Assembly: GCA_000018565.1 (NCBI GenBank)
Contig: CP000875.1
Coordinates: forward strand, 5,533,199-5,597,198
Direction of reading: 5' to 3'
DNA: 64,000 nucleotides
Origin: Herpetosiphon aurantiacus DSM 785
Lineage (GTDB): Bacteria; Chloroflexota; Chloroflexia; Chloroflexales; Herpetosiphonaceae
The position numbers were made by a program, and so were the translations under genes. Every line of letters begins with the position of its first letter. Positions within the stretch are counted from its first letter, which is position 1. This document shows, piece by piece, positions 11,802 to 31,480 of this stretch. The notes under the pieces were generated by a model. It was not told the DNA's origin. It ran no database searches and saw only the letters and a program-made list of their open reading frames with translations.

Positions 11802-11804
11802 TTG

Positions 11805-12425: not shown

Positions 12426-12477
12426 GCAGGGCGAACGAGAATACTTAAGTTCATAAAGGAATTACTGTTGACCACTA

Positions 12478-12551
12478 ATTGCCATTTAGGGGGTGCCGGG
12501 GGATGAAAACCCCCGGCGTTTCCCTCCAGCGGAGGGACGGAAGGGTGGCGA
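12478..12551. other. Three-stem structured intergenic element, copy 1
   Basis: GCCATT (12481-12486) can pair with GGTGGC (12544-12549), using two G-U pairs. This encloses hairpin GCCGGGGG/CCCCCGGC with loop ATGAAAA and hairpin CCCTCC/GGAGGG. A diverged copy at 31407-31480 preserves the single-stranded segments and changes stem bases compensatorily. RNA or mobile-DNA function is unknown. Confidence 0.6.
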
Positions 12552-12583
12552 AACAAATTTACTTCTAATAAATAATTTTGGAT

Positions 12584-13819
12584 CTAACGTCCACTGTTTT
12601 CGCGGCGGGCGCGTGAGGCGGCATCAATCGTGACTGCCAACAAAAGCACTGAGCCAGTTACGATAAATTTGATCGATGACTTGAGCGCCAGTAAATCCAT
12701 GCCATTGGCAATTGCCCCAATCACTAGTGCGCCCAGCAAAGCCGACCAAATTCGGCCACGCCCACCAAACAGGCTGGTGCCACCGATCACCGCTGCGGCG
12801 ATTGCGTTCAAAAGCACGTCGCCATCGCCTGATGATTGATTGGCCGCGTTCAAACGTGAGGCGGCCAAAATCCCGCCACAGGCGGCGAGTGCCGAAGCCA
12901 GCATAAAAATCGTAATCCGAATCCGATTAACATTGATTCCTGCGCGGCGAGCAGCTTCGGTATTGCCGCCAACCGCATAAACATAGCGGCCAAAACGGGT
13001 GCGCTGGGTAATAAAATCAAAGATAATCAAAAACGTTAGGAAGATAATGACTGCGCTAGGCACGCCTTGGATTGGGTTACCCGCAGCGTTGGCATTGCGG
13101 TTGACGCTCATCATCGCAACACCCGCCAAGACACTCGCGCCAACCACCCCAACCCGCCAAAATACGCCGTTCAACGAGCCAGTTGGCAATTCAGCAGCGC
13201 GGCGGCTGCGATATTCGTTGAACACAATCAAGGTATAAACGACAACACTGACAATCCCCAAAACCCAGCCAAGCCAAATTGGCAGTTTATAGTTGGCAAT
13301 ATCATTAATAAATTTATTGGTGATGTTGATGCTGCCTGTGTCACCAAGCACTCGTAATCGCGAGCCTTGCCAAGCTAGCAAACCTGCAAGCGTAACCACA
13401 AACGAGGGCACGCGGAAGGTTGAAATCCACCAACCTTGCAACAAGCCAACCAAGGCTCCAACCACAATTGCCCCAATAATCGCCACGGCAGCAGGCAAAT
13501 TATGGCGCGAAACCAACACCGCCATCACCGCCGCCGCCAAGCCACTAACCTGGCCTGCCGAAAGATCAACCTCACCTAGCAGCAAAATTAGCACAACTCC
13601 CGTTGAAATTGTGCCCATCGCGGCGATTTGCACCATCAAGTTGGTCAGGTTGAGCGGCGTAAGAAAGTTTTTATTGATACTTTGAAACACCAATGCAATA
13701 ATAATCAAGCCAATAATCACTGGCAGCGAGCCTAGGTTGCCTTGGCGAAAGCGTTCGGCTAATGCTTCGCGCCAATTGTTGGGCGCAGCAGCAAGATTCG
13801 TCGGTTGCGTTTTCATCAT
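12584..13819 (-). CDS. xylH: Sugar ABC transporter permease (XylH-like)
   Basis: This 411-residue polytopic inner-membrane protein belongs to the ribose/xylose permease family. It shows the typical GVVLILLLGEVDLSAG and IGGTSLFGGRG segments and about ten hydrophobic stretches. Its length is close to E. coli XylH. It forms the channel through which a monosaccharide, probably xylose, is imported by the adjacent ATPase and binding protein. Its start overlaps the stop of the ATPase gene, which implies translational coupling. No sugar isomerase or kinase genes are adjacent, so the substrate rests on the binding-protein similarity alone. Confidence 0.85.
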   Translation of the reverse strand: MMKTQPTNLAAAPNNWREALAERFRQGNLGSLPVIIGLIIIALVFQSINKNFLTPLNLTNLMVQIAAMGTISTGVVLILLLGEVDLSAGQVSGLAAAVMAVLVSRHNLPAAVAIIGAIVVGALVGLLQGWWISTFRVPSFVVTLAGLLAWQGSRLRVLGDTGSINITNKFINDIANYKLPIWLGWVLGIVSVVVYTLIVFNEYRSRRAAELPTGSLNGVFWRVGVVGASVLAGVAMMSVNRNANAAGNPIQGVPSAVIIFLTFLIIFDFITQRTRFGRYVYAVGGNTEAARRAGINVNRIRITIFMLASALAACGGILAASRLNAANQSSGDGDVLLNAIAAAVIGGTSLFGGRGRIWSALLGALVIGAIANGMDLLALKSSIKFIVTGSVLLLAVTIDAASRARRENSGR

Positions 13820-14607
13820 TCGGCCTCTCCATAGGCATTGCTGGGCAGCATTGCCCCAGTAATCGCGCCAATCACTTGTTCGTTGGTGCTGCGAGCGGTG
13901 TGGAAGGTAGCGACCCGCCGCCCCAACCGCATCACAATAATTCGATCAGATACTTCAAACACATCGGCAACATTATGGCTAATTACCACCACAGCCAAAC
14001 CACGATCGCGCAAACGCATAATCAAATCTTTGACTTGGCGGGTTTGCTCAACGCCCAGCGCCGCCGTTGGCTCATCAAGCAGCACAACTTTGGAGTTCCA
14101 CATGACTGAACGGGCAACCGCCACCGATTGGCGTTGACCGCCCGAAAGATTGGCAATTTGCACCCGCACACTCGGAATTTTGACGCTCAGATCGCGCAGC
14201 ACTTCAGTCGCTCGGCGTTCCATCTCGGTTTCATTCAGCAGATCGAAGGATTTAAGCCCACTGCGGCGCACATTTTCGCGGCCAAGATAGAGATTAGAAA
14301 CCACATCGAGATTATCGCACAAGGCCAAATCTTGGTAGACGGTTTCAACGCCGAGGTCGGTGGCATCGCGTGGGCTATTGATTGAAACGACCTTGCCTTC
14401 AAAGACATAATCGCCCTCGTCAGGTTTGTAGGCTCCGGCGATGGTTTTAATCAGCGTCGATTTGCCTGCGCCATTATCGCCAACCAATGCCACCACTTCA
14501 TTCGAGTAGACCTCGAAATCGACGTTGGAGAGGGCTTGAACCGCACCAAAGCGTTTGCTAATTTGGCGCAATTGCAAAACAGGCATCGCTGCTTCTGTTG
14601 CTGTCAT
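13816..14607 (-). CDS. xylG: Sugar ABC transporter ATP-binding protein (single ABC domain)
   Basis: A 263-residue ATPase with Walker A GDNGAGKS, signature LSGGQRQ, Walker B VVLLDEPTAALG and H-loop VISHN. Enzymes of the xylose and ribose importers normally carry two fused ABC domains (about 500 residues). This one has a single domain, as in FrcA/GguA-like proteins, and must act as a homodimer. The start is preceded by AAAGGA. It lies between the binding-protein gene (84-bp gap) and the permease gene (overlap). The role is clear; the symbol is by operon context. Confidence 0.82.
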   Translation of the reverse strand: MTATEAAMPVLQLRQISKRFGAVQALSNVDFEVYSNEVVALVGDNGAGKSTLIKTIAGAYKPDEGDYVFEGKVVSINSPRDATDLGVETVYQDLALCDNLDVVSNLYLGRENVRRSGLKSFDLLNETEMERRATEVLRDLSVKIPSVRVQIANLSGGQRQSVAVARSVMWNSKVVLLDEPTAALGVEQTRQVKDLIMRLRDRGLAVVVISHNVADVFEVSDRIIVMRLGRRVATFHTARSTNEQVIGAITGAMLPSNAYGEAE

Positions 14608-14691
14608 GACATATTCCTTTTGCTGTGGGTCAGTGGAGGAGCCGCTGAGTTGGCTGTGTGAGCCGTGCCAACCCAGCGGCGCAGAGGTTAG

Positions 14692-15816
14692 TTATTGAAT
14701 ACCGGCATCAGCACAGGCTTTGGCGAAGTCGCCAGCACAGATCTGATCAACTTTGTGGAATTGGTCTTTGACAATCGTGTCTTTGACGTTTTCTTTGGTC
14801 ACAGCAATTGGGGTCAGCAAGATTGAAGGAACATCAATTTTGCCATTGTTGACTTTGCTGGTAGCTTTGTCGCTGGTTTTGCCTTCGAGCAAGGCAAAGG
14901 CCAATTCAGCAGCAGCTTCGGCTTGTGGCTTGATCGCTTTGTACACGGTCATGTATTGATCGCCAGCCAAAATCCGTTGAATCGCCGCCAATTCAGCATC
15001 TTGGCCTGTGACTGGAGGCAATGGTGAGAGACCACCAGCCTTCATAGCGGCAATCGCCCCGCCACCAGTACCGTCGTTGGCAGCATATACGCCATCAACT
15101 TTGTTACCCATGCTGGTCAAGGCTTGTTGCATTTGGTCTTGGGCTTTGTCGGGGCTCCAGTCGGGAGTGTCATATTCGTTGGCGATGGTCAATTTGCCAG
15201 CGCTAACCAATGGATCAAACACGCTGTGAGCGCCAGCTTTGAACAATTTAGCATTGTTGTCGGTTGGTGAGCCGTTGATCATGACGATAGTTGGGTTGGC
15301 AATCCCTTGCTTGTCTAATTGCGCAACCAAGCTTTCGGCTTGCAACTTGCCAACTGATTCGTTGTCGAATGAAATGTAGTAGCTCACGCCATCCGAGTTA
15401 AGGATCAAGCGGTCGTAGGCGATGACTGGCACATTTTGGGCTTTGGCTTTGTCGGCAATCGAAGCAGCAGCAGCAGAATCAACTGGGTCAAGCACCAAAA
15501 CCTTTGCGCCGTTGGTCAACGCTGCTTCAGCTTGTTGCAATTGCAAGCTGGCATCTTGGTTGGCGTTGTTGTAAATCACCTGACAATCTGGGCAAAGCTC
15601 TTTCATTTTGGCTTCGAAGTAGGGGCGGTCGGCAGTTTCATAGCGGGCAGTTTTGGCATCGGGCAAGAACAAAGCGACTACTTTGCCGCCACTGCTGGTT
15701 GTGCCACCAGTGCCTGTGGTTGGAGCAGTTGTAGCGCTTTCGCTACCACAGGCTGCAATCACGCTAGAGATGAGGATCAACAAGAGGGAAGTGAATGCGC
15801 TACGCCGCACGTTCAT
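14692..15816 (-). CDS. xylF: Xylose-type sugar-binding lipoprotein of ABC importer
   Basis: A 374-residue extracytoplasmic solute-binding protein. The signal sequence ends in the lipobox VIAAC, so Cys23 is probably lipidated and anchors the protein to the membrane. The mature part is a periplasmic-binding-protein type I fold (VVALFLPDAKTARYE, VPVIAYDRLI, GVYAANDGTGGG) and resembles D-xylose-binding XylF and ChvE. It is the first gene of the importer operon and has a strong GAAGGAG site. The 84-bp gap before the ATPase gene may allow higher expression of the binding protein. Xylose specificity is inferred from family resemblance. Confidence 0.85.
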   Translation of the reverse strand: MNVRRSAFTSLLLILISSVIAACGSESATTAPTTGTGGTTSSGGKVVALFLPDAKTARYETADRPYFEAKMKELCPDCQVIYNNANQDASLQLQQAEAALTNGAKVLVLDPVDSAAAASIADKAKAQNVPVIAYDRLILNSDGVSYYISFDNESVGKLQAESLVAQLDKQGIANPTIVMINGSPTDNNAKLFKAGAHSVFDPLVSAGKLTIANEYDTPDWSPDKAQDQMQQALTSMGNKVDGVYAANDGTGGGAIAAMKAGGLSPLPPVTGQDAELAAIQRILAGDQYMTVYKAIKPQAEAAAELAFALLEGKTSDKATSKVNNGKIDVPSILLTPIAVTKENVKDTIVKDQFHKVDQICAGDFAKACADAGIQ

Positions 15817-16184
15817 AGAATGGACTCCTTCGTCTGTTAAGACCTACAATCGTCATTGATACCGAATTGTGCGAACAAAAAGCCAACCAAATCGAACGAA
15901 CCTGCTCCCGGTGAGCAGCGCACCAATGCCCTAGGCCATCATCAAAGCTACGTTGAGCGAACCATTGCTTTTTTCTGTAGGTGTAGATTTGCCATGATGG
16001 GTAGTTGGTTGGTGGGTTGCCTAAGTTGCGTAAATGCGCCGCTTATGGCACGATAGTATGTGCTGACTGATGTAAGGCTAGTGTACGCCAAAGCTGTTGG
16101 TCAACCCAACCCCCAATCCCCCAATCTTCCTAGGGTCTTTCCCCTAGTTGAATGGGGGGATTTCCCCCTAAAGCGAGGATTTGC
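15817..16184. other. Divergent intergenic region between importer operon and response regulator
   Basis: These 368 bp must hold the promoters of both directions. I see no strong -35/-10 pair and no gene. The part next to the regulator is C- and G-rich, with CCCCCAATCTTCCTAGGG and a GGGGGGATTTCCCCC hairpin at about 16154-16168. Confidence 0.5.
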
Positions 16185-17216
16185 ATGCAACTCAATGGCG
16201 AGCGTCAGATTCGAATTGTGGTAGCCGATGATCATGCGGTAGTGCGAGCTGGCATTTCAACCGCACTAAGCGATTTGCCCAATGTTGAAATTGTGGCCGA
16301 GGTCGGCGATGGGCCTGGGGTTTTAGCCGCGCTCGATCTACGGCCAGATGCCTTGGTGATTGATGTGAGCATGCCGCAATTCGAGCCGTTGCAAACAATT
16401 CGCCAAATTCGCATGCATTATCCACAGCTCAAAATTCTCGTAGTCAGCGCCTATGATGATGATGTGTATGTGCAAGGGTTGTTGCAAGCAGGAGTCGATG
16501 GCTACCAACTCAAAGATCAACCTTTGGCTGATATTCGTTTGGCCCTGCAACGGGTGCTAGCTGGCGAACGCTGGGTTTGCACACCCTTGCTTTCGAAGTT
16601 GATGCGTGGCGTGCCCGTGGTTGAAACTGGCCTGACCCCGCGCCAACGTGAATTGTTGTGGTGTTTGCAGCAGGGCGATGATAACCATGCAATTGCCCGC
16701 CGCATTGGCCTAAGCGTCAAAACCGTTGAAAATCATCTTACGCGGCTGTATCGCCAAATTGGGGTGCAAAGTCGGCTTGAAGCGGTACATTATGCGGCCC
16801 AACACCCACAATTGCCGATGATGCCAACCAGCAACCAAGTGATTGCCCCCAGCCAAGCGCTAAGCGTGTTGATTGTTGATGATAATTTGCGCTATCGTCA
16901 ACACGTTAGTCGCATGATTAGCAAAATGCAGCCCAATTGTGCTGTGGTTGAAGCCGCTCACCAAACTGAAGCTATGGCAGCAATTAGCCAACGCTCGCCT
17001 GATTTGGCCTTGGTTGATGTGGTTTTAGGCGATGAAGATGGCATTAGTTGCGCCGCCCAAATTAAGCAACAATCGCCCAAGACCCGCGTGCTGCTGGTCA
17101 GCGCCTACCCCGACCGCGAGTTTCATCGGCGCGGTTTGGCGGTCGGGGCAGTTGCCTTGCTCGATAAAAAAGACCTTGATGCGGCGGCGCTGCGCTTGTT
17201 GTTGGAAGATGTGTGA
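16185..17216 (+). CDS. Response regulator with REC-LuxR HTH-REC architecture
   Basis: A 343-residue protein. The first receiver domain (about 9-125) has acidic Asp15/16 and phosphoacceptor Asp60 in VIDVSMP. A LuxR/NarL-type helix-turn-helix (about 150-205; GLTPRQREL, KTVENHL) follows. A second receiver (about 226-343; LIVDDN, phosphoacceptor in LVDVVLG, Lys in LLDKKD) is at the C-terminus. NarL-type regulators normally end after the HTH, so the trailing receiver is unusual. A frame begins at 16152, but the ATG at 16185 has an upstream GCGAGG and gives the normal receiver start. It is divergent from the xylose-type importer and may control it; no sensor kinase is nearby. Confidence 0.85.
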   Translation: MQLNGERQIRIVVADDHAVVRAGISTALSDLPNVEIVAEVGDGPGVLAALDLRPDALVIDVSMPQFEPLQTIRQIRMHYPQLKILVVSAYDDDVYVQGLLQAGVDGYQLKDQPLADIRLALQRVLAGERWVCTPLLSKLMRGVPVVETGLTPRQRELLWCLQQGDDNHAIARRIGLSVKTVENHLTRLYRQIGVQSRLEAVHYAAQHPQLPMMPTSNQVIAPSQALSVLIVDDNLRYRQHVSRMISKMQPNCAVVEAAHQTEAMAAISQRSPDLALVDVVLGDEDGISCAAQIKQQSPKTRVLLVSAYPDREFHRRGLAVGAVALLDKKDLDAAALRLLLEDV

Positions 17217-17390
17217 GTGAGGGGTCAGTTGTCGGGGGCTAGGGGTCAGGATTGTGATCCACGAAGGACACGAAGAACACAAAGAAGGTTTTTAGCCACA
17301 GATGAGCACAGATTATTTTGATTATTCTGCTGCTTTCTGTTTCACCACAGCGTTTCCTGACCCCTGACCCCCAACCCCTGCCCCCTAATA
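17217..17390. repeat. Dispersed quasi-repeats between regulator and serS
   Basis: Holds GGGGTCAG/GGGGCTAGG text, CCACGAAGGACACGAAG, CCACAGATGAGCACAGAT and CCCCTGACCCCCAACCCC. All these texts recur elsewhere. No gene is seen. Confidence 0.65.
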
Positions 17391-18659
17391 TTACCCAATC
17401 CGTTCGATGCCGCCCATGTACGGTCGCAGCACTTCGGGAACCGTCACGCTGCCATCAGCATTTTGATAATTTTCGAGAATCGCGATGATCACCCGTGGCA
17501 AAGCCAAGCCCGAACCATTCAATGTATGCACAAACTCAGGTTTTGCCCCAGCTTCGGGGCGATAGCGAATATTGGCACGACGAGCTTGATAATCACCAAA
17601 CAAGCCACACGACGAAACTTCCAGCCATTCGTTCATGCCAGGTGCCCACATTTCCAAATCGTACTTGACCGTGGCAATGCCCAAATCGGCGGTGCACAAT
17701 TGCAACAAGCGATAAGGAATTTTCAAGCCTTTGCAAACATCCTCAGCATTGCTAATCAGCGAGAATAATTCATCGTAGCTGGTAGCTGGCTCAACCATTT
17801 TGACCATCTCGACTTTATCGAATTGATACAGCCGCTTGATGCCACGGACATCACGTCCAGCGCTCATTTGCTCGTTGCGGAAACATGGGGTATGCGCCAC
17901 ATAGCGTAATGGCAATTGAGCTTTATCTAAAATTTCTTCGCGATGCAAGTTGGTAACTGGCACTTCAGCGGTCGGAATCAGCCATAAATCGGTATCTTCG
18001 ATATGAAAAATCGTGTCGGCAAATTTGGGCAAGTTGCCAGTGCCAACCATGGCATCGGCCTTAACCAAGTAGGGCACGGCCAATTCGGTGTAACCATGCT
18101 GATCAACATGCATATCGATCATCCAGCTAATCAAGGCCCGTTGCAAGCGCACGCCCAAGCCTTTCATCACGAAAAAGCGTGTACCACTCATGCGCACGCC
18201 TCGCTCAAAATCGAGAATCCCGAGGGCTTCGCCTAGCTCCCAGTGTGGCTTAACCGCAAAATCAGGCTCTTGGATTGTACCTTCGACCCGCACCACAACA
18301 TTATCGTGTTCATCCTTGCCAACAGGCACTTCGGGCAACGGCAAGTTAGGTAAATCGAGCAGAAGATTGTGCAATTCCAAATCGATTGCATTTGCCTGTG
18401 CATCGAGTTCAGTAATTTGATCGCCAACCAGCTTCATGGCGGCAATTTTCACGTCGCGTTCAGCCTTATCTTTAGTGCGGGCCACATCTTTCGAGCCAGC
18501 ATTGCGCTCGGCCTTGAGCCGCTCAACTTCGGTAATCGCCTCGCGCCGTTTAAGATCCAAGCCAATCACCTGATCGACTAAACCTGGATCACGACCAACT
18601 TTGGCAAAGCCTTCGCGTACCAACTCGGGTTGTTCACGAAATAAACGAATATCAAGCAT
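17391..18659 (-). CDS. serS: Seryl-tRNA synthetase
   Basis: This 422-residue class II aminoacyl-tRNA synthetase charges tRNA-Ser in the cytoplasm. The N-terminal coiled-coil arm (about 1-110, starting MLDIRLFREQPELVREG) binds the tRNA long variable arm. Motif 2 is visible in CFRNEQMSAGRDVRG with downstream LYQFDKVEMV, and motif 3 in GSGLALPRV. The length is normal. A GAAGGAG site precedes the start. It is the last gene of a four-gene operon: three unknown membrane protein genes precede it with overlapping stop/start codons or a 17-bp gap, and a T-box leader lies in front of the whole set. Confidence 0.97.
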   Translation of the reverse strand: MLDIRLFREQPELVREGFAKVGRDPGLVDQVIGLDLKRREAITEVERLKAERNAGSKDVARTKDKAERDVKIAAMKLVGDQITELDAQANAIDLELHNLLLDLPNLPLPEVPVGKDEHDNVVVRVEGTIQEPDFAVKPHWELGEALGILDFERGVRMSGTRFFVMKGLGVRLQRALISWMIDMHVDQHGYTELAVPYLVKADAMVGTGNLPKFADTIFHIEDTDLWLIPTAEVPVTNLHREEILDKAQLPLRYVAHTPCFRNEQMSAGRDVRGIKRLYQFDKVEMVKMVEPATSYDELFSLISNAEDVCKGLKIPYRLLQLCTADLGIATVKYDLEMWAPGMNEWLEVSSCGLFGDYQARRANIRYRPEAGAKPEFVHTLNGSGLALPRVIIAILENYQNADGSVTVPEVLRPYMGGIERIG

Positions 18660-18676
18660 TGCAATACTCCTTCACA

Positions 18677-19258
18677 TTATGCGTCGGCTGACGCAGCAAG
18701 ATGATCTAATTCCTCGATTGCGACAACAATTCCTGGGCGAATCACCCCAAATGCCACATAAAAACGGTAGGCTTGGTTGGCCTTAGGCAAGGTTTTACTG
18801 TGTTGGTCGTTCAGCAAAAACATATATAAGCTATCGCGGTGCAAGGTGGCCGAAACTGCCTCGGAACGATGCACTTTGACTTCGTTTACACTGCCTTCGA
18901 GCGTTTCAACTTTGGCTTTATTGAGTCGCTGACGGGCAAGTGCTCCGTTGATCGCGCTAACCAAGGGAAACAAGGCAATTGCCAAAGGAACCCAAAATTG
19001 CCAAGAATCGGTACGCTGGGTCAGCGCAAACACCAGGAAGAATCCCCCAAAGGCTAAGCGAATCCAAATATCAAAAATTGAAATTTTCAAAATGCGTTTA
19101 ATTTGATCAGGGTGCAACTCGCCATGTTGATTGCTTGGCAACTCGGCTTTGATGCCCCAAACCAGATCAAGCGCTTGGGTTTGCGCTACTTGGGCATTAT
19201 GTTCGCGAATTTTAGCTAATTCCTCGCCAGTTGGGCGCTTGGATTGACGCTTGCTCAT
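18677..19258 (-). CDS. Membrane protein of unknown function, third gene of T-box operon
   Basis: A 193-residue protein with a charged N-terminus (MSKRQSKRPTGEELAKI), two adjacent hydrophobic helices (about 78-115) and a soluble C-terminal domain. That domain includes HRDSLYMFLLNDQHSKTL and ends with VVAIEELD. The preceding gene product is related: both have the two-helix core, a following segment on substitution-tolerant LEGSVNEVKV or ITGELEKIQP, and a closing GIVVAIE or GIIVAVE. They are probably a tandem duplication. The start overlaps the previous stop (ATGA), and serS begins 17 bp after the end. Function unknown. Confidence 0.75.
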   Translation of the reverse strand: MSKRQSKRPTGEELAKIREHNAQVAQTQALDLVWGIKAELPSNQHGELHPDQIKRILKISIFDIWIRLAFGGFFLVFALTQRTDSWQFWVPLAIALFPLVSAINGALARQRLNKAKVETLEGSVNEVKVHRSEAVSATLHRDSLYMFLLNDQHSKTLPKANQAYRFYVAFGVIRPGIVVAIEELDHLAASADA

Positions 19259-19716
19259 GCTGTTTCAACCGCCACGATAATGCCCATGCGTGAAACACCC
19301 TTGGCTACATAAATTGTGTAAGGTTGGCCAACCTGGAGTGGTTGGTTGCCCAATTTGGCTAAGAGTGCATACGAACGCTTATTGATCACCAGCTCGGACT
19401 CAAACATGGCAAATGGCACTGGCTGAATTTTTTCGAGTTCGCCGGTAATCGCTTGCACCACGCCAGCCTTGAGCGCGGCTTGACTTTGGCGACGAACCCA
19501 AGCATTGATAATTAACACACCGCCTAAGCCCGCAACCACCCAGCCCAAGGTATCGAAGCGCAATGTGCCATAACTAATCAGCGCCAAACCGATGAGCAGC
19601 ATCGGCAAAAATGGCACGCGAAACGCTCGCATCGCCTGAAGTTGACGTTGTTGATTGGGTGCTAGACGACCCTCGTGATTATGAATTAAATCGGCTTGAT
19701 CGCCTCGAATAATCAT
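19255..19716 (-). CDS. Membrane protein of unknown function, second gene of T-box operon
   Basis: A 153-residue protein with two hydrophobic helices (about 36-70) and a C-terminal domain (VQAITGELEKIQPVPF to YTIYVAKGVSRMGIIVAVE). The C-terminal pattern matches that of the next gene product (YRFYVAFGVIRPGIVVAIE), so the two are paralogues. It overlaps both neighbours by ATGA, which indicates translational coupling. No catalytic motif is seen. Confidence 0.75.
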   Translation of the reverse strand: MIIRGDQADLIHNHEGRLAPNQQRQLQAMRAFRVPFLPMLLIGLALISYGTLRFDTLGWVVAGLGGVLIINAWVRRQSQAALKAGVVQAITGELEKIQPVPFAMFESELVINKRSYALLAKLGNQPLQVGQPYTIYVAKGVSRMGIIVAVETA

Positions 19717-20228
19717 GCAGTTTCCTCTGGCTCTGGCTCATTCAGCGCTTCCGCCACCAAACTGCGGTATGGTTGGGGAATCTCGCCCAATGAGGCATAG
19801 ATGGTTGTTTCAATTTCGTACAAGCGGCGTTGACCACGCCGTAATACTGCAAAATCGAGAGTTTGCTGGCTGCCATGATGCTGAATTGCTTGGCGAATCC
19901 AGCTTTGGAGCACACCCTCGCAATGTGGACAAATTGACTTAAGCTCGCCACTTTCGCTGCTGGAGCGGGCCACTGAGGTTAAAAATGCTGGCATTTTACT
20001 AATCTCAGGCAGCGTATGACTAAAGTGACACTGTTTACAACGAACAACGATCGATTCTTGGTCGGGTTGGGCAAAATGGGTATGAATTGGGTGTTCTTTG
20101 CTTGGATTCAACAACTCATACGATGGATTGCGCATACCACCACCCCAAGCTAAGCGACTAAACACCCATAGCACAATCACCAACCCAACAACACTCCCAA
20201 ATGTAACTAAGCCGATTTCCCACGACAT
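19713..20228 (-). CDS. Membrane-anchored protein with two Cys pairs, first gene of T-box operon
   Basis: A 171-residue protein. An N-terminal transmembrane helix (about 5-25) is followed by a domain with CKQC and CPHC pairs that could bind zinc or form a rubredoxin-like knuckle. The ATG at 20228 has GAGG six bases upstream and is preferred over the TTG at 20240. It is the first gene behind the T-box leader, whose terminator ends about 40 bp upstream, and its stop overlaps the next start. Function unknown. Its placement with serS suggests that serine or tRNA-Ser supply controls its expression. Confidence 0.75.
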   Translation of the reverse strand: MSWEIGLVTFGSVVGLVIVLWVFSRLAWGGGMRNPSYELLNPSKEHPIHTHFAQPDQESIVVRCKQCHFSHTLPEISKMPAFLTSVARSSSESGELKSICPHCEGVLQSWIRQAIQHHGSQQTLDFAVLRRGQRRLYEIETTIYASLGEIPQPYRSLVAEALNEPEPEETA

Positions 20229-20267
20229 CACAAACCTCAAACGTTGGCTGGGTAAAAATTCGACATT

Positions 20268-20306
20268 AAAAAAAGCTCTTCGTCCCTAGAGAAGGACGAA
20301 GAGCTT
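20268..20306 (-). terminator. Intrinsic terminator of the T-box leader
   Basis: A 13-bp stem (20273-20286 with 20294-20306) followed on the minus strand by a run of Ts. The antiterminator would use the T-box sequence at 20316-20329. Confidence 0.88.
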
Positions 20307-20500: not shown

Positions 20501-20522
20501 GCGCTATTATACCACGAAAGCC
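20499..20522 (-). promoter_or_regulatory. Promoter of the T-box operon with palindromic flanks
   Basis: A perfect TATAAT -10 (20506-20511) lies inside a 24-bp segment that is 22/24 identical to the promoter at 54807-54830. It is flanked by GGC/GCC arms. No good -35 box is visible. Confidence 0.65.
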
Positions 20523-20555
20523 AATGGTTTTAGCTGCTAGCCAAAACGCCATCAC

Positions 20556-21161: not shown

Positions 21162-21179
21162 AGTTTAAACAGAGCAAAG

Positions 21180-23235: not shown

Positions 23236-24386
23236 GCTGCTTGCAAAATCCCCAGTAAATCATCAACAGTTGGCGCAACAGGGTTATGGTAAACCGCTCC
23301 ATCGCCAAAGGCTTGTTCAGCCAACATTGGCAAGGAATCTTCAGGAATGCCCAAATCGCGCAGTTGGGTGATCAGGCCGCAGTCGCTGGCCAACTGACGC
23401 AAACCTGCAATCAAATCGTCGATCACTTCCTCGCGTGGCCGACCACCAGTGTTGATCCCAAAGGCTCGTGCCAACCGCGCATAGCGATCGGGCACGGTGC
23501 TGGCATTAAAGGCAACTACATGCGGCAAGAAAATCGAATTGAGCAAGCCATGGTGCAAGGGGAAATGGCCGCCAGTAGCGTGAGCCAAGGCATGCACCGC
23601 ACCCAAATATGAGTTGGTAAAGGCAATCCCCGCCATACACGAGGCAATCAACATCTGGCCGCGAGCTTCTTCATTGGTCGAGCCATGGTGGGTTGCGTCA
23701 CGCAGATAATTTGAAACAATCTCGACCGCGCCCAAGGCCAAGGCATCACTCATTGGCTCAGATTCGGTTGAGACATAGGTTTCAAAGGCATGCGTCAGCG
23801 TATCCATGCCCGTTGCGGCAGCCAAATGTGCTGGCAAACTTTGGGTTACTTGCGGGTCAAGAATCGCCAACTCAGGCGCAAGGTAAGGGCTGGTAAATGA
23901 AAGCTTAACGTTATTGGCTTCATCCTTGATTACGGCAAAGTTGCTAGCTTCCGAGCCAGTGCCAGCGGTCGTAGGAATTGCCACCATCGGAATTAAGCGC
24001 CGTTCCAGCACATTAATCCCTTCATAATCGAGTAAATTGCCGCCCTCGGTGATCAAAATACGCATGGCTTTGGCGGTATCAATTGGTGAACCACCGCCAA
24101 GCGCCACCAACAGATCAGCGCCCGATTCGCGGGCTTGAGCCGCAGCTGCTTCAACCACGGTCACCGAGGAATTTGGCGGAACATCGCTATAAACGCCGAC
24201 GACTTCGACCGTCTCGGCCAACGCTTGTTGAACTTGCTCGACCAAGCCTGACTTGACCAAACCAGCATCGGTCACAATGAAGGCCTTGGTTGCGCCCAGC
24301 GAGCTTAATTCAGCTCCCATTTCGGCAACCAACCCTGATTTATACAACACCCGTGGCAGTAAACGAAACTCAAAAAATTCTTGCAT
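23229..24386 (-). CDS. Iron-containing alcohol dehydrogenase
   Basis: A 385-residue group III (Fe-dependent) alcohol dehydrogenase. It has the NAD(P)-binding GGGSPIDTAKAM and GTGSEASNFAVI motifs. The metal ligands lie in the segments HALAHATGGHFPLHHG and YHNPV. Such enzymes interconvert alcohols and aldehydes or ketones in the cytoplasm. AAGGAG precedes the start. The gene overlaps the membrane protein gene downstream by seven bases, implying co-expression. Substrate not determinable. Confidence 0.92.
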   Translation of the reverse strand: MQEFFEFRLLPRVLYKSGLVAEMGAELSSLGATKAFIVTDAGLVKSGLVEQVQQALAETVEVVGVYSDVPPNSSVTVVEAAAAQARESGADLLVALGGGSPIDTAKAMRILITEGGNLLDYEGINVLERRLIPMVAIPTTAGTGSEASNFAVIKDEANNVKLSFTSPYLAPELAILDPQVTQSLPAHLAAATGMDTLTHAFETYVSTESEPMSDALALGAVEIVSNYLRDATHHGSTNEEARGQMLIASCMAGIAFTNSYLGAVHALAHATGGHFPLHHGLLNSIFLPHVVAFNASTVPDRYARLARAFGINTGGRPREEVIDDLIAGLRQLASDCGLITQLRDLGIPEDSLPMLAEQAFGDGAVYHNPVAPTVDDLLGILQAAW

Positions 24387-24404
24387 AATTGGCTCCTTTT
24401 TTCG

Positions 24405-24714
24405 AGGGATCAGTCGTCAGGGGCTAGGGATCAGAAGTTGAAACCACAAAGTACCCAAATGACGACTTTTATCCCCTCCTTCCAAGAGTAGGTTTTTAAC
24501 AATGATTGGGAGGGCTTCACCGTCTATGGCATGCCCTCACCCCCTAGCCCCCTCTCCCGCACAGCAGGAGAGGGGGAATCCTTCGATCATGAAGCTTAGA
24601 ACGCCCCTCGCCCGCCACAGTGGGCGAGGGGGTGAGGGATATAGTTAATGCTATCAACCGCTACCCCTGAACCCTAGTCCCCAGTCGCTGACCCCTATGT
24701 TCTATGTTCTAAAT
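24405..24714. repeat. Intergenic mosaic of quasi-repeats containing a palindromic element
   Basis: This 328-bp gap holds GGGATCAG/GGGGCTAGG text, the palindromic element copy C at 24528-24638, and CCCCTGAACCC/TGTTCTATG text. No gene is seen. Confidence 0.65.
24528..24638. repeat. Palindromic intergenic element, copy C
   Basis: Outer arms GCCCTCACCCCC and GGGGGTGAGGG enclose hairpins CCCCCTCTCC/GGAGAGGGGG and CCCCTCGCCC/GGGCGAGGGG. The hairpin order is reversed relative to copies A and B, so this copy is inverted. Confidence 0.8.
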
Positions 24715-25659
24715 TTAGCGTTCACCGCGCAAGACGGCCCGCGCCTCACCAATCAATTGAGCTGCGCCTAAATCGCCAACATCGCGCAAGGCTTGTTGCT
24801 CTTCCGCGAGCCAAGCATCGGCATCAGCGCTTGCTAAAATGGGATACTCGGCCCGTAAAGCCAGCAGTTCGCCAGCATCTTCACATGTCAAAACCGCCCG
24901 CCGAATGCTGTGCCAATTGGCTGGCGGCGGAGCACTCGCTTGAGCCGCCACCGCTGGCTTGCTGCTAGCCAGGGTTTGGCTCGATTGATCGAGCGTTTGG
25001 CGCAGTTGAATCAGGGTAATTCTGGCTCGCTCAAAAGCTTGGCTAATTTCAAATTCGCCTGCATCAACTGCTGCTTCAGCTAAGCCCGCCAATCCCTCAT
25101 CCATCGCCTCATCAAGCAAAAAGGGATATTCATGCAACACCGCTTGCAATTCTTCGGGAGTATCGGCAGCAAGCATGCGCATAATCGCTTCAGCCAAGGG
25201 CGGCAAACTATCCGAATCTTCCGAGCCAAGCGCATCGCCAATTGCTTCAATCGCTGATTGCGGCGTGTAATTGAGTTGATCTAAAGCCTCAGCCACACCC
25301 GCTACGCCAGCCTCAGCTTGCACATTACCAAGGTAGGGCAATTGATTCTCGCGTGGCAATGCGCCGATCAACATCCACAACAAACCTTGCGCCAATTCAT
25401 TCCATTCGGCTTCGGGCATGCCATAAGGAACCCCAAATAGCACCGCTTTGGCTCGCCGATCATGTAGCAGAATTGGCGCGGGCACAACCCCAGTTTGGCC
25501 ACAACCTGGACAACGGGTGTCGTGCAAACTTACCTCACGAATCGCCTGCACCAAATCAGGGCGTTCCTCGGCATCAACAATCAACCAAGCCTCGGCCACA
25601 AACGGAGTTTGGCAGGTCGGGCAAACAAGCTCATATGGTTGGCTATACGAAATTGGCAT
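24715..25659 (-). CDS. CpXC-domain protein
   Basis: A 314-residue protein. An N-terminal CpXC domain (about 8-85) has two zinc-knuckle pairs, CPTC and CPGC, and the family signature AEAWLIVDAEERPDL. The rest is mostly helical and acidic, with a low-complexity Ala/Pro stretch near 235. CpXC proteins are common in bacteria and uncharacterised. The paralogue at 25672 lies 12 bp upstream in the same direction, and fadD lies before that. Confidence 0.8.
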   Translation of the reverse strand: MPISYSQPYELVCPTCQTPFVAEAWLIVDAEERPDLVQAIREVSLHDTRCPGCGQTGVVPAPILLHDRRAKAVLFGVPYGMPEAEWNELAQGLLWMLIGALPRENQLPYLGNVQAEAGVAGVAEALDQLNYTPQSAIEAIGDALGSEDSDSLPPLAEAIMRMLAADTPEELQAVLHEYPFLLDEAMDEGLAGLAEAAVDAGEFEISQAFERARITLIQLRQTLDQSSQTLASSKPAVAAQASAPPPANWHSIRRAVLTCEDAGELLALRAEYPILASADADAWLAEEQQALRDVGDLGAAQLIGEARAVLRGER

Positions 25660-25671
25660 GCATGGCTCTCG

Positions 25672-26304
25672 CTAGGGTATTAATCGACGCAAAAAATCGC
25701 TAAGCCCACTGTCTATTGGCACAACGGCGGCTAAGCGATCAAACAGCAACGTTAAGTCAGATTGTTGGTCAGCATTTAGGCTTTGCCAAAACGCTTGATG
25801 ATGGTCGCGATCATGGCTTTGCAGCAAGGTTTCAAATTGATCGATTGTTGCCAGCTGGTGAATTGGCCATTCGATCGTCGCCATCAGCGCAATTAACTCG
25901 CGGCGATAACTGGCATGGATCAGCATCAACTGCAAATCGTCAAGATCTGCCGCCAGCTGGACATGAGCCAAATATTCAGCTTGATCCAGCTTTTCGAGTT
26001 CCAAGCGGCTATGCAACAAGCCAACCAATTGCTGGGCCAAAGCCTCAGCCTCGCTAGCACTGGCAACCGATAAGGGCAAGGCTAAAATCAATTGCTCATA
26101 GCGAGCATCATGATACAACAATGGTGCAGTTAACGAGCCAAGCGCATCGCAATAGGGGCATTGGGTTTCGCGCAAACGACCATCAAATAACTGTTGCACT
26201 AAACCAGGCTGCTCCTCGGCATCGAGAATCAGCCACAGGGGCGCATCGAATTGCGCCCCACAAGCAGGGCATTGCACCACGGCAACTTCATGGCGAGAAC
26301 GCAT
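25672..26304 (-). CDS. CpXC-domain protein (paralogue)
   Basis: A 210-residue protein whose first 80 residues repeat the CpXC domain of the next gene: CPAC, APLWLILDAEEQPGLV, CPYC and LLYHDARYEQLILALP. The remaining helical region is unlike the neighbour. It lies 20 bp after fadD and 12 bp before the paralogue, so the three may form one transcript. Function unknown. Confidence 0.8.
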   Translation of the reverse strand: MRSRHEVAVVQCPACGAQFDAPLWLILDAEEQPGLVQQLFDGRLRETQCPYCDALGSLTAPLLYHDARYEQLILALPLSVASASEAEALAQQLVGLLHSRLELEKLDQAEYLAHVQLAADLDDLQLMLIHASYRRELIALMATIEWPIHQLATIDQFETLLQSHDRDHHQAFWQSLNADQQSDLTLLFDRLAAVVPIDSGLSDFLRRLIP

Positions 26305-26324
26305 ATTCCAACGTTAGGTTTGGC

Positions 26325-28061
26325 CTAACTTGCCTCCTGCTGGATTTGCTCAGCTTGTTTTTGCTTTTCCATCTCGACCAATACCCGCCGTAGCACTTTG
26401 CCAACTTGGGTTTTGGGCAGTTCCTCAATAAATTCCACTTGAGTTGGAACTTTATAAGGTGCGAGATTTTCTTTGCAAAAATCGCGAATTTCTTTGGCGG
26501 TGGCAGCTGCATCGGGCTTGAGCACCACAAAGGCTTTAACTGTTTCACCACGGTAGGTATCAGGAATGCCAGCCACCGCCGCTTCAAGCACGGCTGGGTG
26601 CATAAACAGCACTTCCTCGACTTCACGTGGCACAATATTATAGCCCGAAGCGATAATTAAGTCTTTCTTGCGATCGACCACATAGAAATAACCATCGCTA
26701 TCGGTTTTGACAATATCGCCAGTGCGCAGCCAACCATCTTCGGTCAGTACTTTGGCGGTTTCATCATCGCGACCCCAATAGCCCTTCATAATTTGCGGCG
26801 CACGAATCAGCAATTCGCCTTCACGCTCTGAGCCAATTGGCAACGGTGCTTCGGTCTCAAGATCCAAAATTTGCACTTCAACATCGGGCATTGGTACGCC
26901 AATTGAGCCAGATTTGCGCGTGCCAAAAACTGGGTTACAGTGAGTAACTGGAGCCGCTTCGGTCAGGCCGTAGCCTTCGACCAAACGCCCGCCAGTCAAT
27001 TCACCAAATTTCTCTTGAACTTCCATTGGCAAGGCCGCTGAGCCACTGATACAGGCCTTGATCGAGCGCAAATTGTATTTATCAATATCTTTGTGATTGA
27101 TAATCCCAATGTAGAGCGCTGGCACACCTGGGAAGATCGTTGCGCGTTCGTTGTGTAAGGCTTCCAACACACCATCAACTGGCCGTGGATTAGGAATGAT
27201 CACCATTTCTGCGCCAATTGCCACCGCAAAGCACATGCCGACCGTCATCCCATAGACATGGAAAAACGGAATAGCACACATGACACGCTCTTGGCCAGCT
27301 TTAAGGTCGTTCATCCAATTCAACAATTGGCTGGTGTTGGCCATAATGTTGTAGTGGGTCAGCATCGCTGCCTTGGGAGCGCCAGTTGTACCGCCAGTAT
27401 ATTGAAACAGCGCCACATCATGGCCATCCATCACCACTTTAGGCGGGGCGGGTGGATATTCAGCCAGCAAGGTGCTAAACATCAAGGTCGTGCGATCGGG
27501 GGTAATCTCAACCCAACTGGGGTCTTTTTGCTGGGTGCGCCGCACAAGTATACTTTGGGGGAAGGATAAAACATCGTGAACGTAGGTGACGATCACGCGT
27601 TTGAGCGGGGTTTCGGCCAAAATTTCTTGAACTTTAGGGTAGAACGGGCTAAGCACAAAAATTGTCTCAGCGCCAGAGTCGGCCAATTGATGCTTGAGTT
27701 CGCGTGGCGAGTAGGTTGGGTTGATGTTGACAACCGTGGCTCCCAAACGCAGCGCCGCGAAAAAACCAATTACAAACTGAGGCGTGTTGGGCAACATAAT
27801 CGCAAAGCGATCGCCCTTGCGAACACCCAAGCCATGCAAGGCTGTGGCAAACCGATCAACCGCTTCCTTCAATTGCCGATAAGTGAGCGAACCGCCAATT
27901 GCCACCCGACCACCAAGTACATATTTCAGTACAAAGTTTGTAGCCACCTGATTGGGATAATTGGCAACGGCGCTATCCAATAACGAAATCAACGGCTCAG
28001 TGGAGTACTGCAATGAGGGCTTGACCGTTGGCTCGTAGTGTGTTGTCCATGGCGTATCCAC
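26325..28061 (-). CDS. fadD: Long-chain fatty acid-CoA ligase (AMP-forming)
   Basis: A 578-residue member of the adenylate-forming superfamily. It has the phosphate-binding loop YTGGTTGAPKAAMLTH, the adenine motif EGYGLTEAAPVTHC, TGDIVK and the catalytic-lysine region PKTQVGKVLRR. It activates fatty acids to acyl-CoA through an acyl-AMP intermediate. Translation begins at GTG (28061), seven bases after a strong AGGAGG. Two CpXC genes follow closely. Confidence 0.93.
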   Translation of the reverse strand: MDTPWTTHYEPTVKPSLQYSTEPLISLLDSAVANYPNQVATNFVLKYVLGGRVAIGGSLTYRQLKEAVDRFATALHGLGVRKGDRFAIMLPNTPQFVIGFFAALRLGATVVNINPTYSPRELKHQLADSGAETIFVLSPFYPKVQEILAETPLKRVIVTYVHDVLSFPQSILVRRTQQKDPSWVEITPDRTTLMFSTLLAEYPPAPPKVVMDGHDVALFQYTGGTTGAPKAAMLTHYNIMANTSQLLNWMNDLKAGQERVMCAIPFFHVYGMTVGMCFAVAIGAEMVIIPNPRPVDGVLEALHNERATIFPGVPALYIGIINHKDIDKYNLRSIKACISGSAALPMEVQEKFGELTGGRLVEGYGLTEAAPVTHCNPVFGTRKSGSIGVPMPDVEVQILDLETEAPLPIGSEREGELLIRAPQIMKGYWGRDDETAKVLTEDGWLRTGDIVKTDSDGYFYVVDRKKDLIIASGYNIVPREVEEVLFMHPAVLEAAVAGIPDTYRGETVKAFVVLKPDAAATAKEIRDFCKENLAPYKVPTQVEFIEELPKTQVGKVLRRVLVEMEKQKQAEQIQQEAS

Positions 28062-28128
28062 GATGATACCTCCTCAACAGCGGACAAGCAAAACATTCGG
28101 AGAGGCAACAGGGCGAACAGGGTGGGTC

Positions 28129-28317
28129 TTAGGATGCAGGTGTTTCCTCGGTGTTCGGGTCGAACCAGCCCCGTTCTTGGGCAATGAATTTAATCGTGGC
28201 ATCGTCGGGGGGATACAAACCCGCCACTTGATAGGCATAGGCTAGCAAGGCCGCGCCGCCAACTAAACCCACAACTGCGCCAATTAAAAAGGCCAGAATC
28301 GCTCCAAAACGCCGCAT
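28129..28317 (-). CDS. Small single-pass membrane protein
   Basis: A 62-residue protein starting at an ATG with AAGGAG nine bases upstream; a longer frame from 28425 lacks such a site. One glycine-rich transmembrane helix (about 6-32) is followed by a short soluble tail (PPDDATIKFIAQERGWFDPNTE). It lies just upstream of fadD on the same strand. Function unknown. Confidence 0.65.
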   Translation of the reverse strand: MRRFGAILAFLIGAVVGLVGGAALLAYAYQVAGLYPPDDATIKFIAQERGWFDPNTEETPAS

Positions 28318-28535
28318 GCTGGAAACTCCTTGTGTGTCGGTGGAGACCATTGGGATAGCCAGTTTGGCCCATCCCCAACGGTAGAAACGCGCTACCATCA
28401 TAACGCATAGCATCATTAAGCGCAACCACCAGCCCTAGCAACATTTGGCCAAGCACGGGCGTACTAGACGACAGTTGTACAATGCAATTACCAAGTATGT
28501 TGCACATCTTTGTGCTAGCATTTGAGGAGCGTGTG

Positions 28536-29504
28536 ATGTCTGATAACGATTATCGACCTAAATTTGATCCCCAAACTGGCCAGCCCATCCCGAACCAACC
28601 CCAAGGCGGTTATCCACCACCACCGCCTCAAGGTGGCTATCCACCACCACCGCCCCAACCAAACTATGGTGCTCCAGCAGCAGGTGGCTACACCATGGCC
28701 AGCGAGCCAGGCCGCCCGCTCGATTTGCCCGAACCACCAGTTGCTTTGAGTGGCCGGGGCATGACCACTGGCTTGCGCTACAAAATTATTGGAACTGTGC
28801 TCCAAGCAGCGATCATCGAGCTTGATCCAGGCCAGATGATCTTCTCGGAAAGCGGCGGGATGTCGTGGATGAGCGGCAACGTTCAGATGAACACGAATTC
28901 TGGCGGCGGTATCGGCAAGATGTTCAAACGGGCTTTCTCAGGCGAATCGTTGTTCATTGTCGATTTCACGGTTGCAGGCGGCACTGGTTTGATTGGTTTT
29001 GCCAGCGAAATGCCCGGCAAGATTGTGCCATTGCACCTCGCCCCCGGCCAAGAAATCATCATGCAAAAAGATTCGTTTATGTGTGCCGAAAAGTCGGTTC
29101 AGCTTGATATTCACTTCCGCCGTAAATTGGGCGCAGGCCTGTTTGGCGGCGAAGGCTTTATCATGCAACGCGCGACTGGCCCAGGCGTGGTTTTTGCCGA
29201 GCTTGATGGCGAAGTCGTCGAATATTACTTGCAACCAGGCCAGGTGATGAAGGTCGATACTGGTCACGTGGCGATGTATGAGCCAAGCGTCCAGTTCGAT
29301 ATTGAAATGGTTCGCGGTTTCAAGAATATTCTCTTCGGCGGCGAAGGCTTGTTCCTGGCAACCTTGCGCGGCCCTGGTAAAGTTTGGCTGCAAACCATGC
29401 CTGTCATGAACGTTGCCAAGAAATTGGCCGAATACATGCCAGCCAGTGGTGGCGGCGGCAGCGCTGGCGGTAACATCATCGGCAGCATTCTCGGCGGCGA
29501 CTAA
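28536..29504 (+). CDS. AIM24/TIGR00266-family protein with Pro/Tyr-rich N-terminus
   Basis: A 322-residue protein. Residues 1-70 are low complexity (repeated GGYPPPPPQ), typical of an interaction or self-association tail. The rest is an AIM24-type beta-sandwich (about 85-300) with repeated FGGEG and PGQ segments, including [12 protein letters not shown] and [17 protein letters not shown]. Bacterial homologues are uncharacterised, and the mitochondrial AIM24 link is only by family. The ATG at 28536 is preceded by GAGGAG and preferred over 28482. A terminator follows. Confidence 0.88.
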
Positions 29505-29518
29505 GCGCTAGCACTATT

Positions 29519-29560
29519 CCAGCGATGAGGGCAGCAACACCTTCATCGCTGGTTTGTTTT
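29519..29560 (+). terminator. Terminator after the AIM24-family gene
   Basis: CCAGCGATGA (29519-29528) pairs with TCATCGCTGG (29543-29552), followed by TTTGTTTT. Confidence 0.75.
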
Positions 29561-29569
29561 ATCTCGGGG

Positions 29570-29800
29570 ATTGGTTGTTGGGGATCGGGGATCGGATTTT
29601 GAAACGATGCAGAACCCGAAGCGCACGAACGAAAGATGGCTATGGGCTTTTGGATGCAGAATCATGAACAGACCACAAATTGTCCCGATAGCCGATAGCC
29701 TTAGGTTCTCTGCGCCTCTGAGTTAAAACCTAATCCCCAACAACGTGTCCCTAATCCCTCCTTTGACCTTTGACTTCTGCCTTTTGATTTTCTAAACAGA
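29570..29800. repeat. Dispersed quasi-repeats upstream of the acetyltransferase gene
   Basis: Holds GGGGATCGGGGATCGG, ACCCGAAGCGCACGAACG, TCTGCGCCTCTGAGTTAAA, a TCCCTAATCCCTCC stretch and TTTGACCTTTGACTTCTGCC. No gene is seen. Confidence 0.65.
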
Positions 29801-29809
29801 GGTTTTACC

Positions 29810-30253
29810 ATGGCAACGATTCGTTTAGAACCAATTACTGAGGAAAACTTACGGCCTGTACTCAAACTCAAAGTTCGCGATGATCAAACCCAATTTGTGG
29901 CGCAAAATATGTTTTCGGTGGCCGAGGCCTATGTGCACCCCGATTGGGAGCCACGCGCGATTTATGCCGATAGCGATTTGGTTGGCTTTGTGATGATGGG
30001 CCGCGACACTGAAACTGGCCACGATTGGATTATTCGCTTTATGATTGGGGCTGAACACCAAGGCAAGGGGTATTCCAAACCAGCACTTTTGGCCATCATC
30101 GATCATCTCAAGCATAAAGCCTATCGCACTGAAATTCGGCTGAGTTATGTGCCAGGCAATGAGGTAGCCGAAAAGCTTTATCAAAAAGTGGGCTTTGAAG
30201 CAACTGGCGAGGTCGAAGATGGCGAAATTATTATGCGCTTGAACGAGGCCTAA
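29810..30253 (+). CDS. GNAT-family N-acetyltransferase (polyamine acetyltransferase-like)
   Basis: A 147-residue single-domain GNAT protein. The acetyl-CoA-binding loop is EHQGKGYSKPAL, followed by EIRLSYVPGNEVAEKLYQKVGF. The N-terminus and overall length resemble BltD/SpeG-type spermidine or diamine acetyltransferases. It would transfer acetyl from acetyl-CoA to an amine in the cytoplasm; the substrate is inferred. It is monocistronic or leads into the lipoprotein gene 83 bp on. Confidence 0.85.
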   Translation: MATIRLEPITEENLRPVLKLKVRDDQTQFVAQNMFSVAEAYVHPDWEPRAIYADSDLVGFVMMGRDTETGHDWIIRFMIGAEHQGKGYSKPALLAIIDHLKHKAYRTEIRLSYVPGNEVAEKLYQKVGFEATGEVEDGEIIMRLNEA

Positions 30254-30336
30254 TTCGATTATCAGCAACCCATCAGAGCGGTGTCACCCCAAACCGATCA
30301 TAGGCGGCGTATACTGCACGATGAAAGGAGGCCATC

Positions 30337-31350
30337 GTGCACCGTTATTCACGTCTCATGCTTATTTTGGGCCTTGCATTGCTCAGCGCTTGCAGCAATA
30401 GCAGCCCAGCTACGATACAACCATTGCCCGAACAACCTACCGCAAGTATTCCGGCAGCCAACCCCGATCAACCAACCTCAACTCCGGCAGTCAGTCAAAC
30501 CGCAGTCAGTGAGGATAATTCCGCTCCACCCAGCCCACCCAATCTACCAGCATTCGATGATCGTCAAGATCCGCTGAGCTTATTGGCGAGCTTTTATAAT
30601 GCGATCAATCGTGCCGACTATCAACGTGCCTATGGCTATTTTGAAGTCGCGCCAATGCCGTTTGATCAATTTGAGCAAGGCTATGAGCAAACACTCAGCG
30701 TCAAGGTGTTGATCGATCCGCATTTTGTAATTGATGTTGGTGCTGGCAACCAAAACACGCGAGTTGCCGCTGGCTTGATTGCTTATGATCGTCAAGCAGG
30801 TTGGCAATATTTTGTAGGTTGCTATGAATTGCATCGGGTCAATATCAACGGCCCAACTGAGCCTTGGCAAATTCGCAACAGCCAATTTGAGCTGACCAAC
30901 GATTTACAAGCTATGAGCCAACAGCTTGGCCAAATTTGCCCAGCGATCGAGCCACCAGCCAGAGTTCAAACGCCTGAACAAACGTTAGCCCTGTATATCT
31001 CCACGTTGAACCAAGCCAATTATGCTCAAGCTTGGAATTATTGGCACGAACAACCAGCCAGCGATGTAGCAGCCTGGAGCCAGCAATTCGAGTCAAATCA
31101 ATTTATCCAAGTGGTTATCAACCCACAAGGCTTGATTGATGCTGGCGCTGGCAATCTGTATTATTCGACCAATCTGGTGTGGCTAACCAACGATCAAGCT
31201 GGTCAATTGCAAGTGCAAGCAGGCTGTGTCACCTTGCATCGCAACAACACCGAGCCAGATCAGCCGTGGAAAATGCAGAACCTGACGTTACAAACATTGC
31301 AAGCAAACCCTAGAGCGCTCGATCAGTCACTCAATAACCAATGCCAATAA
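30337..31350 (+). CDS. Lipoprotein with two repeated domains
   Basis: A 337-residue exported lipoprotein. Translation starts at GTG five bases after AAAGGAGG. The signal sequence ends in the lipobox LLSAC (Cys19). After a Pro/Ser/Thr-rich linker (20-75) come two homologous domains (about 80-195 and 210-325). Each has a helix pattern YNAINRADYQRAYGYF or STLNQANYAQAWNYW, a VIDVGAGN or LIDAGAGN turn, and a single conserved Cys before LHR. They look like SnoaL/NTF2-like folds. No catalytic residues are evident, so ligand binding is a guess. Confidence 0.8.
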   Translation: MHRYSRLMLILGLALLSACSNSSPATIQPLPEQPTASIPAANPDQPTSTPAVSQTAVSEDNSAPPSPPNLPAFDDRQDPLSLLASFYNAINRADYQRAYGYFEVAPMPFDQFEQGYEQTLSVKVLIDPHFVIDVGAGNQNTRVAAGLIAYDRQAGWQYFVGCYELHRVNINGPTEPWQIRNSQFELTNDLQAMSQQLGQICPAIEPPARVQTPEQTLALYISTLNQANYAQAWNYWHEQPASDVAAWSQQFESNQFIQVVINPQGLIDAGAGNLYYSTNLVWLTNDQAGQLQVQAGCVTLHRNNTEPDQPWKMQNLTLQTLQANPRALDQSLNNQCQ

Positions 31351-31406
31351 GTGAATTTCATTGATTAGGTTATGCGTCAGGACGATGGTTTTAGATATCG
31401 TACAAA

Positions 31407-31480
31407 TTGCCATTTAGGGGGTACAGGGGGGATGAAAACCACCTGCGTTTCCCGCCTTGAGGCGGGACGGAAGGGTGGTG
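31407..31480. other. Three-stem structured intergenic element, copy 2
   Basis: A diverged copy of 12478-12551. GCCATT pairs with GGTGGT; a hairpin CAGG..GG/CC.CCTG keeps loop ATGAAAA; a hairpin CCCGCC/GGCGGG replaces CCCTCC/GGAGGG by compensatory change. The segments GTTTCCC and GGGACGGAAGGGTGG are conserved. Confidence 0.6.

Follow-up and report, generated by a model that had tools for sequence, protein, structure and literature searches.

The window analyzed here, a stretch of 64,000 nucleotides (nt) from the chromosome of Herpetosiphon aurantiacus DSM 785 (CP000875.1, 5,533,199-5,597,198), carries two copies of a structured intergenic element on its + strand. They belong to a very abundant repeat family of small DNA elements that appear to be mobile and that have to date been detected in a single bacterial family. 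The element's core is about 78 nt long and consists of two GC-rich hairpins, P2 and P3, with conserved single-stranded segments. A covariance model of the core matches copy 1 at window positions 12477-12554 (105.4 bits, E 3e-23) and copy 2 at 31405-31484 (76.4 bits, E 4.8e-16), which is where the original prediction, made from the sequence of the window, had placed a pair of related three-stem elements. As it had also noted, the copies share their unpaired segments (AATTGCCATTTAGGGGGT, GGGGGATGAAAACC, GCGTTTCCC, and GGGACGGAAGGGTGG) and differ at stem positions. P2 of copy 1 (12495-12517) pairs GCCGGGGG with CCCCCGGC around the loop ATGAAAA, and P3 (12521-12537) pairs TCCCTCC with GGAGGGA. In copy 2, P3 (31450-31467) pairs TCCCGCC with GGCGGGA. 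The difference between CCCTCC/GGAGGG and CCCGCC/GGCGGG is a genuine compensatory change, and across the family that pair is U-A in 55 cases, G-C in 27, C-G in one, G-U in one, and something else in two. The claim that pairing is also kept in the second stem is not confirmed: one C-G to A-U replacement is compensatory, but P2 of copy 2 (31424-31445, as read from the sequence) contains A/C and G/A mismatches and is missing from the minimum-energy fold. At Rfam gathering scores, a tRNA is the sole match across the window and nothing falls on the element; a permissive Rfam scan of four loci yields a tRNA and four below-threshold matches, none of them on the core. The earlier statement that no named RNA class fits is thus upheld at these settings.

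Evidence for the structure comes from the family as a whole. In an alignment of 89 matches from 66 chosen sources, which was fitted to the hairpin model and is therefore biased towards its structure, 96.0% of the P2 cells and 98.7% of the P3 cells are paired, against 42.9% of those in the outer stem GCCA/TGGC. Over all three stems, 85 cells have both sides changed (39.5 ± 4.5 in shuffled alignments) and the covariation score is 0.166, compared with 0.078 after shuffling and at most 0.048 after sliding; these counts are of sequences, not of independent events. The weakest measure is the number of further pair types, 29 against 25.8, a value reached by 25 of the 500 shuffles. When P2 and P3 are taken alone, with the P2 register partly off, there are 70 double changes against 16.9 ± 3.1 and the score is 0.193 against 0.065. 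The most informative pairs are G-C 67/C-G 16, U-A 55/G-C 27, and U-A 73/C-G 10. In several copies from G048, a genome of the family Herpetosiphonaceae outside the genus, P3 is longer and has a different sequence. Comparative sequence analysis therefore supports selection for the P2/P3 structure, as originally proposed. Many copies without covariation had been named as the outcome that would tell against that proposal; the copies are indeed many, but they covary.

The third of the predicted stems fares less well than P2 and P3. GCCA/TGGC can form in both window copies, and three of its five pairs have some double changes (one is A-U in 14 cases and U-A in 12), but four of the five fail to pair in 51-61 of the 87 rows, and with its low overall pairing it is ruled out as a feature of the family. 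An alternative outer stem, CCAC/GTGG, is rejected since it has zero covariation, as is a fourth, upstream hairpin seen by eye in some copies, for which a pair scan finds no coherent helix. Among 84 diverse copies, the most distinct upstream signals are CCAC (positions -5 to -2) and, further out, a block resembling TTGGGT (-32 to -27); on the downstream side, conservation stops within a few bases of the core. Stem mismatches are more often G.U (30) than A.C (8), which hints at a + strand RNA, with the reservation that the cells are not independent and that folding z-scores favor the other strand. Taken singly, copy 1 scores -2.8 on the + strand and -4.0 on the - strand, and copy 2 scores -1.9 and -2.7, so that folding energy alone does not favor the + strand.

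The covariance-model search, which had been suggested with the original prediction, finds 21 matches, 19 of them strong, in a contiguous 464-kb stretch of the same strain's chromosome, and a profile search of that stretch also gives 19. Rather than the two copies first reported, extrapolation to the whole 6.35-Mb chromosome gives about 260. A similarity search of this genome with copy 1 returns at least 41 matches, and a first look gave 139 candidates, of which 40 were scored. The element is present in all six genomes of the genus, which include five relatives (G001-G005). With strict filters, a class-wide search is positive in 8 of 158 genomes, all from one family: the six of the genus and two other Herpetosiphonaceae, G047 and G048. 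A closer look outside the genus gives 40 matches in G048, one in G047, and none in G049. A pattern scan of GTDB contigs finds at least 71 stretches, and 71 of 71 listed are in Herpetosiphonaceae (H. giganteus, H. geysericola, H. llansteffanensis, and one metagenome-assembled genome). Searching plasmid and phage collections with copy 1 turns up nothing at E 1e-5. The repeat is not described in the accessible parts of two papers on Herpetosiphon genomes (PMC3368417; PMC6210107) and three on other subjects (PMC3733652; PMC10969869; PMC2229807), nor in literature listings, drawn mostly from non-subscription literature. A relation to the CRISPR repeats near cas1 is rejected, as the arrays near the four cas1 loci found have other repeats. 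Tandem arrays with a spacing of about 155-260 bp occur in G001, G002, G003, and the DSM 785 genome (loci L085, L084, L088, L097, and L064), and probably arose through unequal crossing-over or slippage.

Close relatives differ in which copies they have. For eight of the 19 strong copies, the corresponding site could be located in the G005 contigs retrieved; the element is present at one of these sites and absent at seven. For copy 1, similarity to G005 ends at 12417 and restarts at 12577; the interval 12418-12576 is absent from this relative, which carries 115 bp of other sequence at the intergenic site. Copy 1 is also absent in G003, is present with a different left arm in G001 and G002, and was not seen in the sequence of G004. 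Just beside it, at 12392-12418, lies an example of the short repeats such as CCACGAAGGACACGAAG that are frequent next to elements in several genomes of the genus. G005, G003, and G002 all lack copy 2. Flank alignment sets the interval missing from G005 and G003 at 31362-31541, with G005 aligned up to -44 and from +59 and G003 up to -48 and from +58, and the site instead holds 135 bp of other sequence in G005 and 74 bp in G003. There are clean empty sites as well. At chromosome position 4492156, both G005 and G003 are empty and G002 has a copy; at 5298620, G005 is empty where the DSM 785 genome has about 187 bp. The first of these intergenic sites is occupied in G001 by a copy in the opposite orientation (contig C4, about position 139800), which suggests that it is an insertion hot spot. 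The family accounts for part of the intergenic change between Herpetosiphon species.

Some copies, which have a core with TTGAGGGG and are called type B, are flanked by inverted ends, with CTTACAAGGGTAGGTTT near -69 and its reverse complement near +32 relative to the core. Allowing up to two mismatches, this motif occurs 151 times in the DSM 785 genome and never in the reversed control. If at least 12 of 17 positions must match at each end, 3 of the 19 strong copies from the 464-kb stretch have both. Among all copies of this genome that were examined, the figure is 14 of 58, a proportion biased upward because some of these loci had been selected for having ends. The 14 comprise 13 of the 22 type B copies and one of the 36 others, and the control positions give no left end and one right end. 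Units with both ends measure 177-189 bp in this genome (13 units with a core) and 160-195 bp in G048 (strong cores). There the units end in another sequence, AGGGCYTATGCGTTCTC (40 matches, none when reversed), and many copies have these ends. One core is hence associated with different inverted ends in two genera. A test of own against random inverted ends is uninformative for G048, since its copies have identical ends; in Herpetosiphon, 24 of 119 copies reach at least the random 95th percentile, and five of the top six have CTTACAAGGG ends.

Target duplications were sought around 24 units with ends, 13 with a core and 11 without, the latter all containing sequence like R2, another abundant intergenic repeat (CCCTCACCCC...GGGGGTGAGGG). 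Flank identity peaks at a width of 11 bp only, at 0.62 against 0.32 for random pairs, and there is no peak at 6-10 or 12-16. Perfect 11-bp duplications flank 5 of the 24 units (0.9% of random pairs), and no unit has a perfect one at any of the remaining widths between 6 and 16. In G048, 9 of 20 units share a flanking word of at least 7 nt, compared with 1.3% of 380 random pairs. The R2 motif CCCTCACCCC or one of its relatives lies within 60 nt outside the ends of 12 of the 13 core-bearing units and of 7 of the 11 others; for control positions the proportion is 12.9% between genes and 2.9% at random. A scan for 11-bp direct repeats around type A copies (24 of 162, against 2.3% at random) was discounted, since tandem repeats such as CACGAAG inflate the count. 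R2 has 36 match rows in the 464-kb stretch, some of them overlapping, and the window holds a copy at 11804-11962, followed by one inverted end of the transposon family (CTACCCTTGAAAG). Elsewhere (L091, 9417-9507) a copy of the element seems to be split by an R2 repeat, which suggests that the two families insert into each other.

The element is probably a non-autonomous transposon resembling a miniature inverted-repeat transposable element (MITE), about 160-195 bp long where the core is strong and the ends are recognizable. It is short, dispersed, present in high copy number, too short to encode a transposase, and variably present between relatives, and its units with recognizable ends are flanked by a target duplication of constant length. 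A transposase supplied in trans would recognize the terminal inverted repeats, and insertion would create the 11-bp duplication, often within other GC-rich intergenic palindromic repeats. A duplication of constant length together with inverted ends is best explained by a DDE transposase, and such an enzyme acting in trans is favored here because both are found. That units insert next to another palindromic repeat and duplicate 11 bp offers a practical starting point for finding it. The window copies would be members of this group that have decayed or diverged: their ends cannot be recognized, and they are placed in the family because of their core homology and their absence at matching sites. 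They are thus to be seen as part of a family of transposable elements rather than as two RNA genes.

Several observations weigh against this picture. Sixteen of the 19 strong copies from the 464-kb stretch do not have both ends, and in the window only 9 and 8 of the 17 end-motif positions match for copy 1, and 8 and 9 for copy 2. The core is better conserved than the ends, the opposite of a plain MITE. Most copy-free matching sites are not clean, having other sequence in place of the element. The 11-bp duplication is shown for units with recognizable ends, to which the window copies do not belong, and not at the two clean empty sites: 5298620 has no long duplication, and 4492156 is flanked by a repeat of about 18-20 bp with no clean 11 bp. 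Among the 24 units tested, two have a common right end (L323), and many loci had been fetched for listed paired ends. The search for an autonomous element or a transposase bearing these ends found none among the first 100 of the 151 end matches, where unpaired ends were not searched for families, and in another species a pair of weak ends 1.4 kb apart revealed no recognizable partner when its open reading frames (ORFs) were listed, without a family search. MITEs are typically AT-rich (PMC10969869), while the G+C content of the core is 0.54-0.70 in the aligned matches; the feature is typical rather than strict.

Covariation, a core common to two genera with different unit ends, and upstream CCAC and TTGGGT-like motifs at a fixed spacing are also what might be expected of a non-coding RNA gene family under host selection, spread by duplication and only incidentally associated with transposon ends. 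We consider this improbable, given some 260 copies, several of them absent at the matching sites of close relatives, and the 11-bp duplications. Orientation relative to genes does little to help it. After excluding 24 of 115 copies that overlap mechanically called ORFs, 58 of the 91 kept run in the same direction as the downstream gene (p 0.011), and in the DSM 785 genome 29 of 44 run with the upstream gene (p 0.049). The effect is slight, the two remaining tests yield p 0.14 (53 of 91, upstream gene) and p 0.17 (27 of 44, downstream gene in the same genome), and matching copies across species were counted separately, making it a mild excess that we do not trust.

Two adjacent GC-rich hairpins, conserved flanking single strands, high intergenic copy number, and tandem arrays would likewise suit an element of the repetitive extragenic palindromic (REP) or PATE type, mobilized in single-stranded form through recognition of its hairpins by a Y1 (HUH) transposase. 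REPs of the GTAG type have indeed been reported in Chloroflexi, according to the part of that study available (PMC3733652). The Y1 domain PF01797 is found in four of the six genomes of the genus, but not in G002 or G004, both of which carry the element, and this rules out Y1 and the REP-associated tyrosine transposases (RAYT) as the general mover. IS200/IS605 elements are not known to have inverted ends or target duplications, and a subset of our units has inverted ends together with the 11-bp duplication. With the G.U excess hinting at RNA rather than DNA, movement by Y1 is decidedly improbable. Least credible of all is copying through RNA by a reverse transcriptase (RT), as in a bacterial counterpart of short interspersed nuclear elements. 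The hints of a folded + strand transcript and the flanking repeat of about 18-20 bp at one site could be read this way, and RT frames of 800-812 codons exist in all six genomes of the genus. The DSM 785 genome encodes an RT-domain protein of 786 amino acids on the - strand (chromosome about 3377924-3380284; L180, 8924-11284; PF00078, E 3e-13), which, we presume, may be a cellular RT of the rvt type. However, such a mechanism does not fit the inverted ends or a duplication width that peaks at exactly 11 bp, and no link between an RT gene and the element was found when looked for by position only.

If the element is a MITE-like transposon, its center calls for comment. MITEs are usually defined by their ends and their center is free to vary; here the center is the conserved and structurally selected part. 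The core may act as a folded + strand transcript, easing the tolerance of insertions or affecting neighboring mRNA. There are precedents in the accessible parts of the literature: Correia/NEMIS transcripts are proposed to act through their fold (PMC2229807), and MITE transcripts in general have also been noted to fold (PMC10969869). An RNA role for the core is unproven. Because the core is structurally selected and conserved while the terminal repeats differ between genera, it might be a functional RNA module carried by transposons that acts in trans or in cis on the control of transposition, on target choice (other palindromes), or on host tolerance of hundreds of copies, a proposal that we regard as unlikely. 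Whether the fold serves the transposon, the host mRNA, or both is a testable question.

Known bacterial repeats resemble the element in part. YPAL/RU-2 and the CIR repeats of Caulobacter and Brucella can be likened to it by description, not by sequence, from the part of the source available (PMC2229807). YPAL/RU-2 is about 168 bp long and not AT-rich, has internal inverted repeats and target duplications, and inserts at or next to dyad symmetries. Its duplications are 3-26 bp long and its inverted repeats internal, whereas a subset of our elements has inverted ends and a peak at 11 bp. In the CIR repeats a linker connects two hairpin arms, and structural properties are preserved from one genus to another, but a loop exposes GANTC, while the loops and linkers of the element conserve other sequences and a subset has inverted ends. 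REP/RAYT systems share abundant extragenic palindromes and tandem groups (PMC3733652, in its available part), but no Y1 transposase was detected in two of the six genomes that carry the element, and some of its units are flanked by 11-bp target duplications. The Correia/NEMIS elements of Neisseria have inverted ends and a target duplication, as do some units of the element, and their folding transcript is proposed to affect neighboring mRNA through RNase III. In the same partial source (PMC2229807), the Neisseria fold pairs both ends, whereas the conserved fold of the Herpetosiphon element is made up of two internal hairpins.

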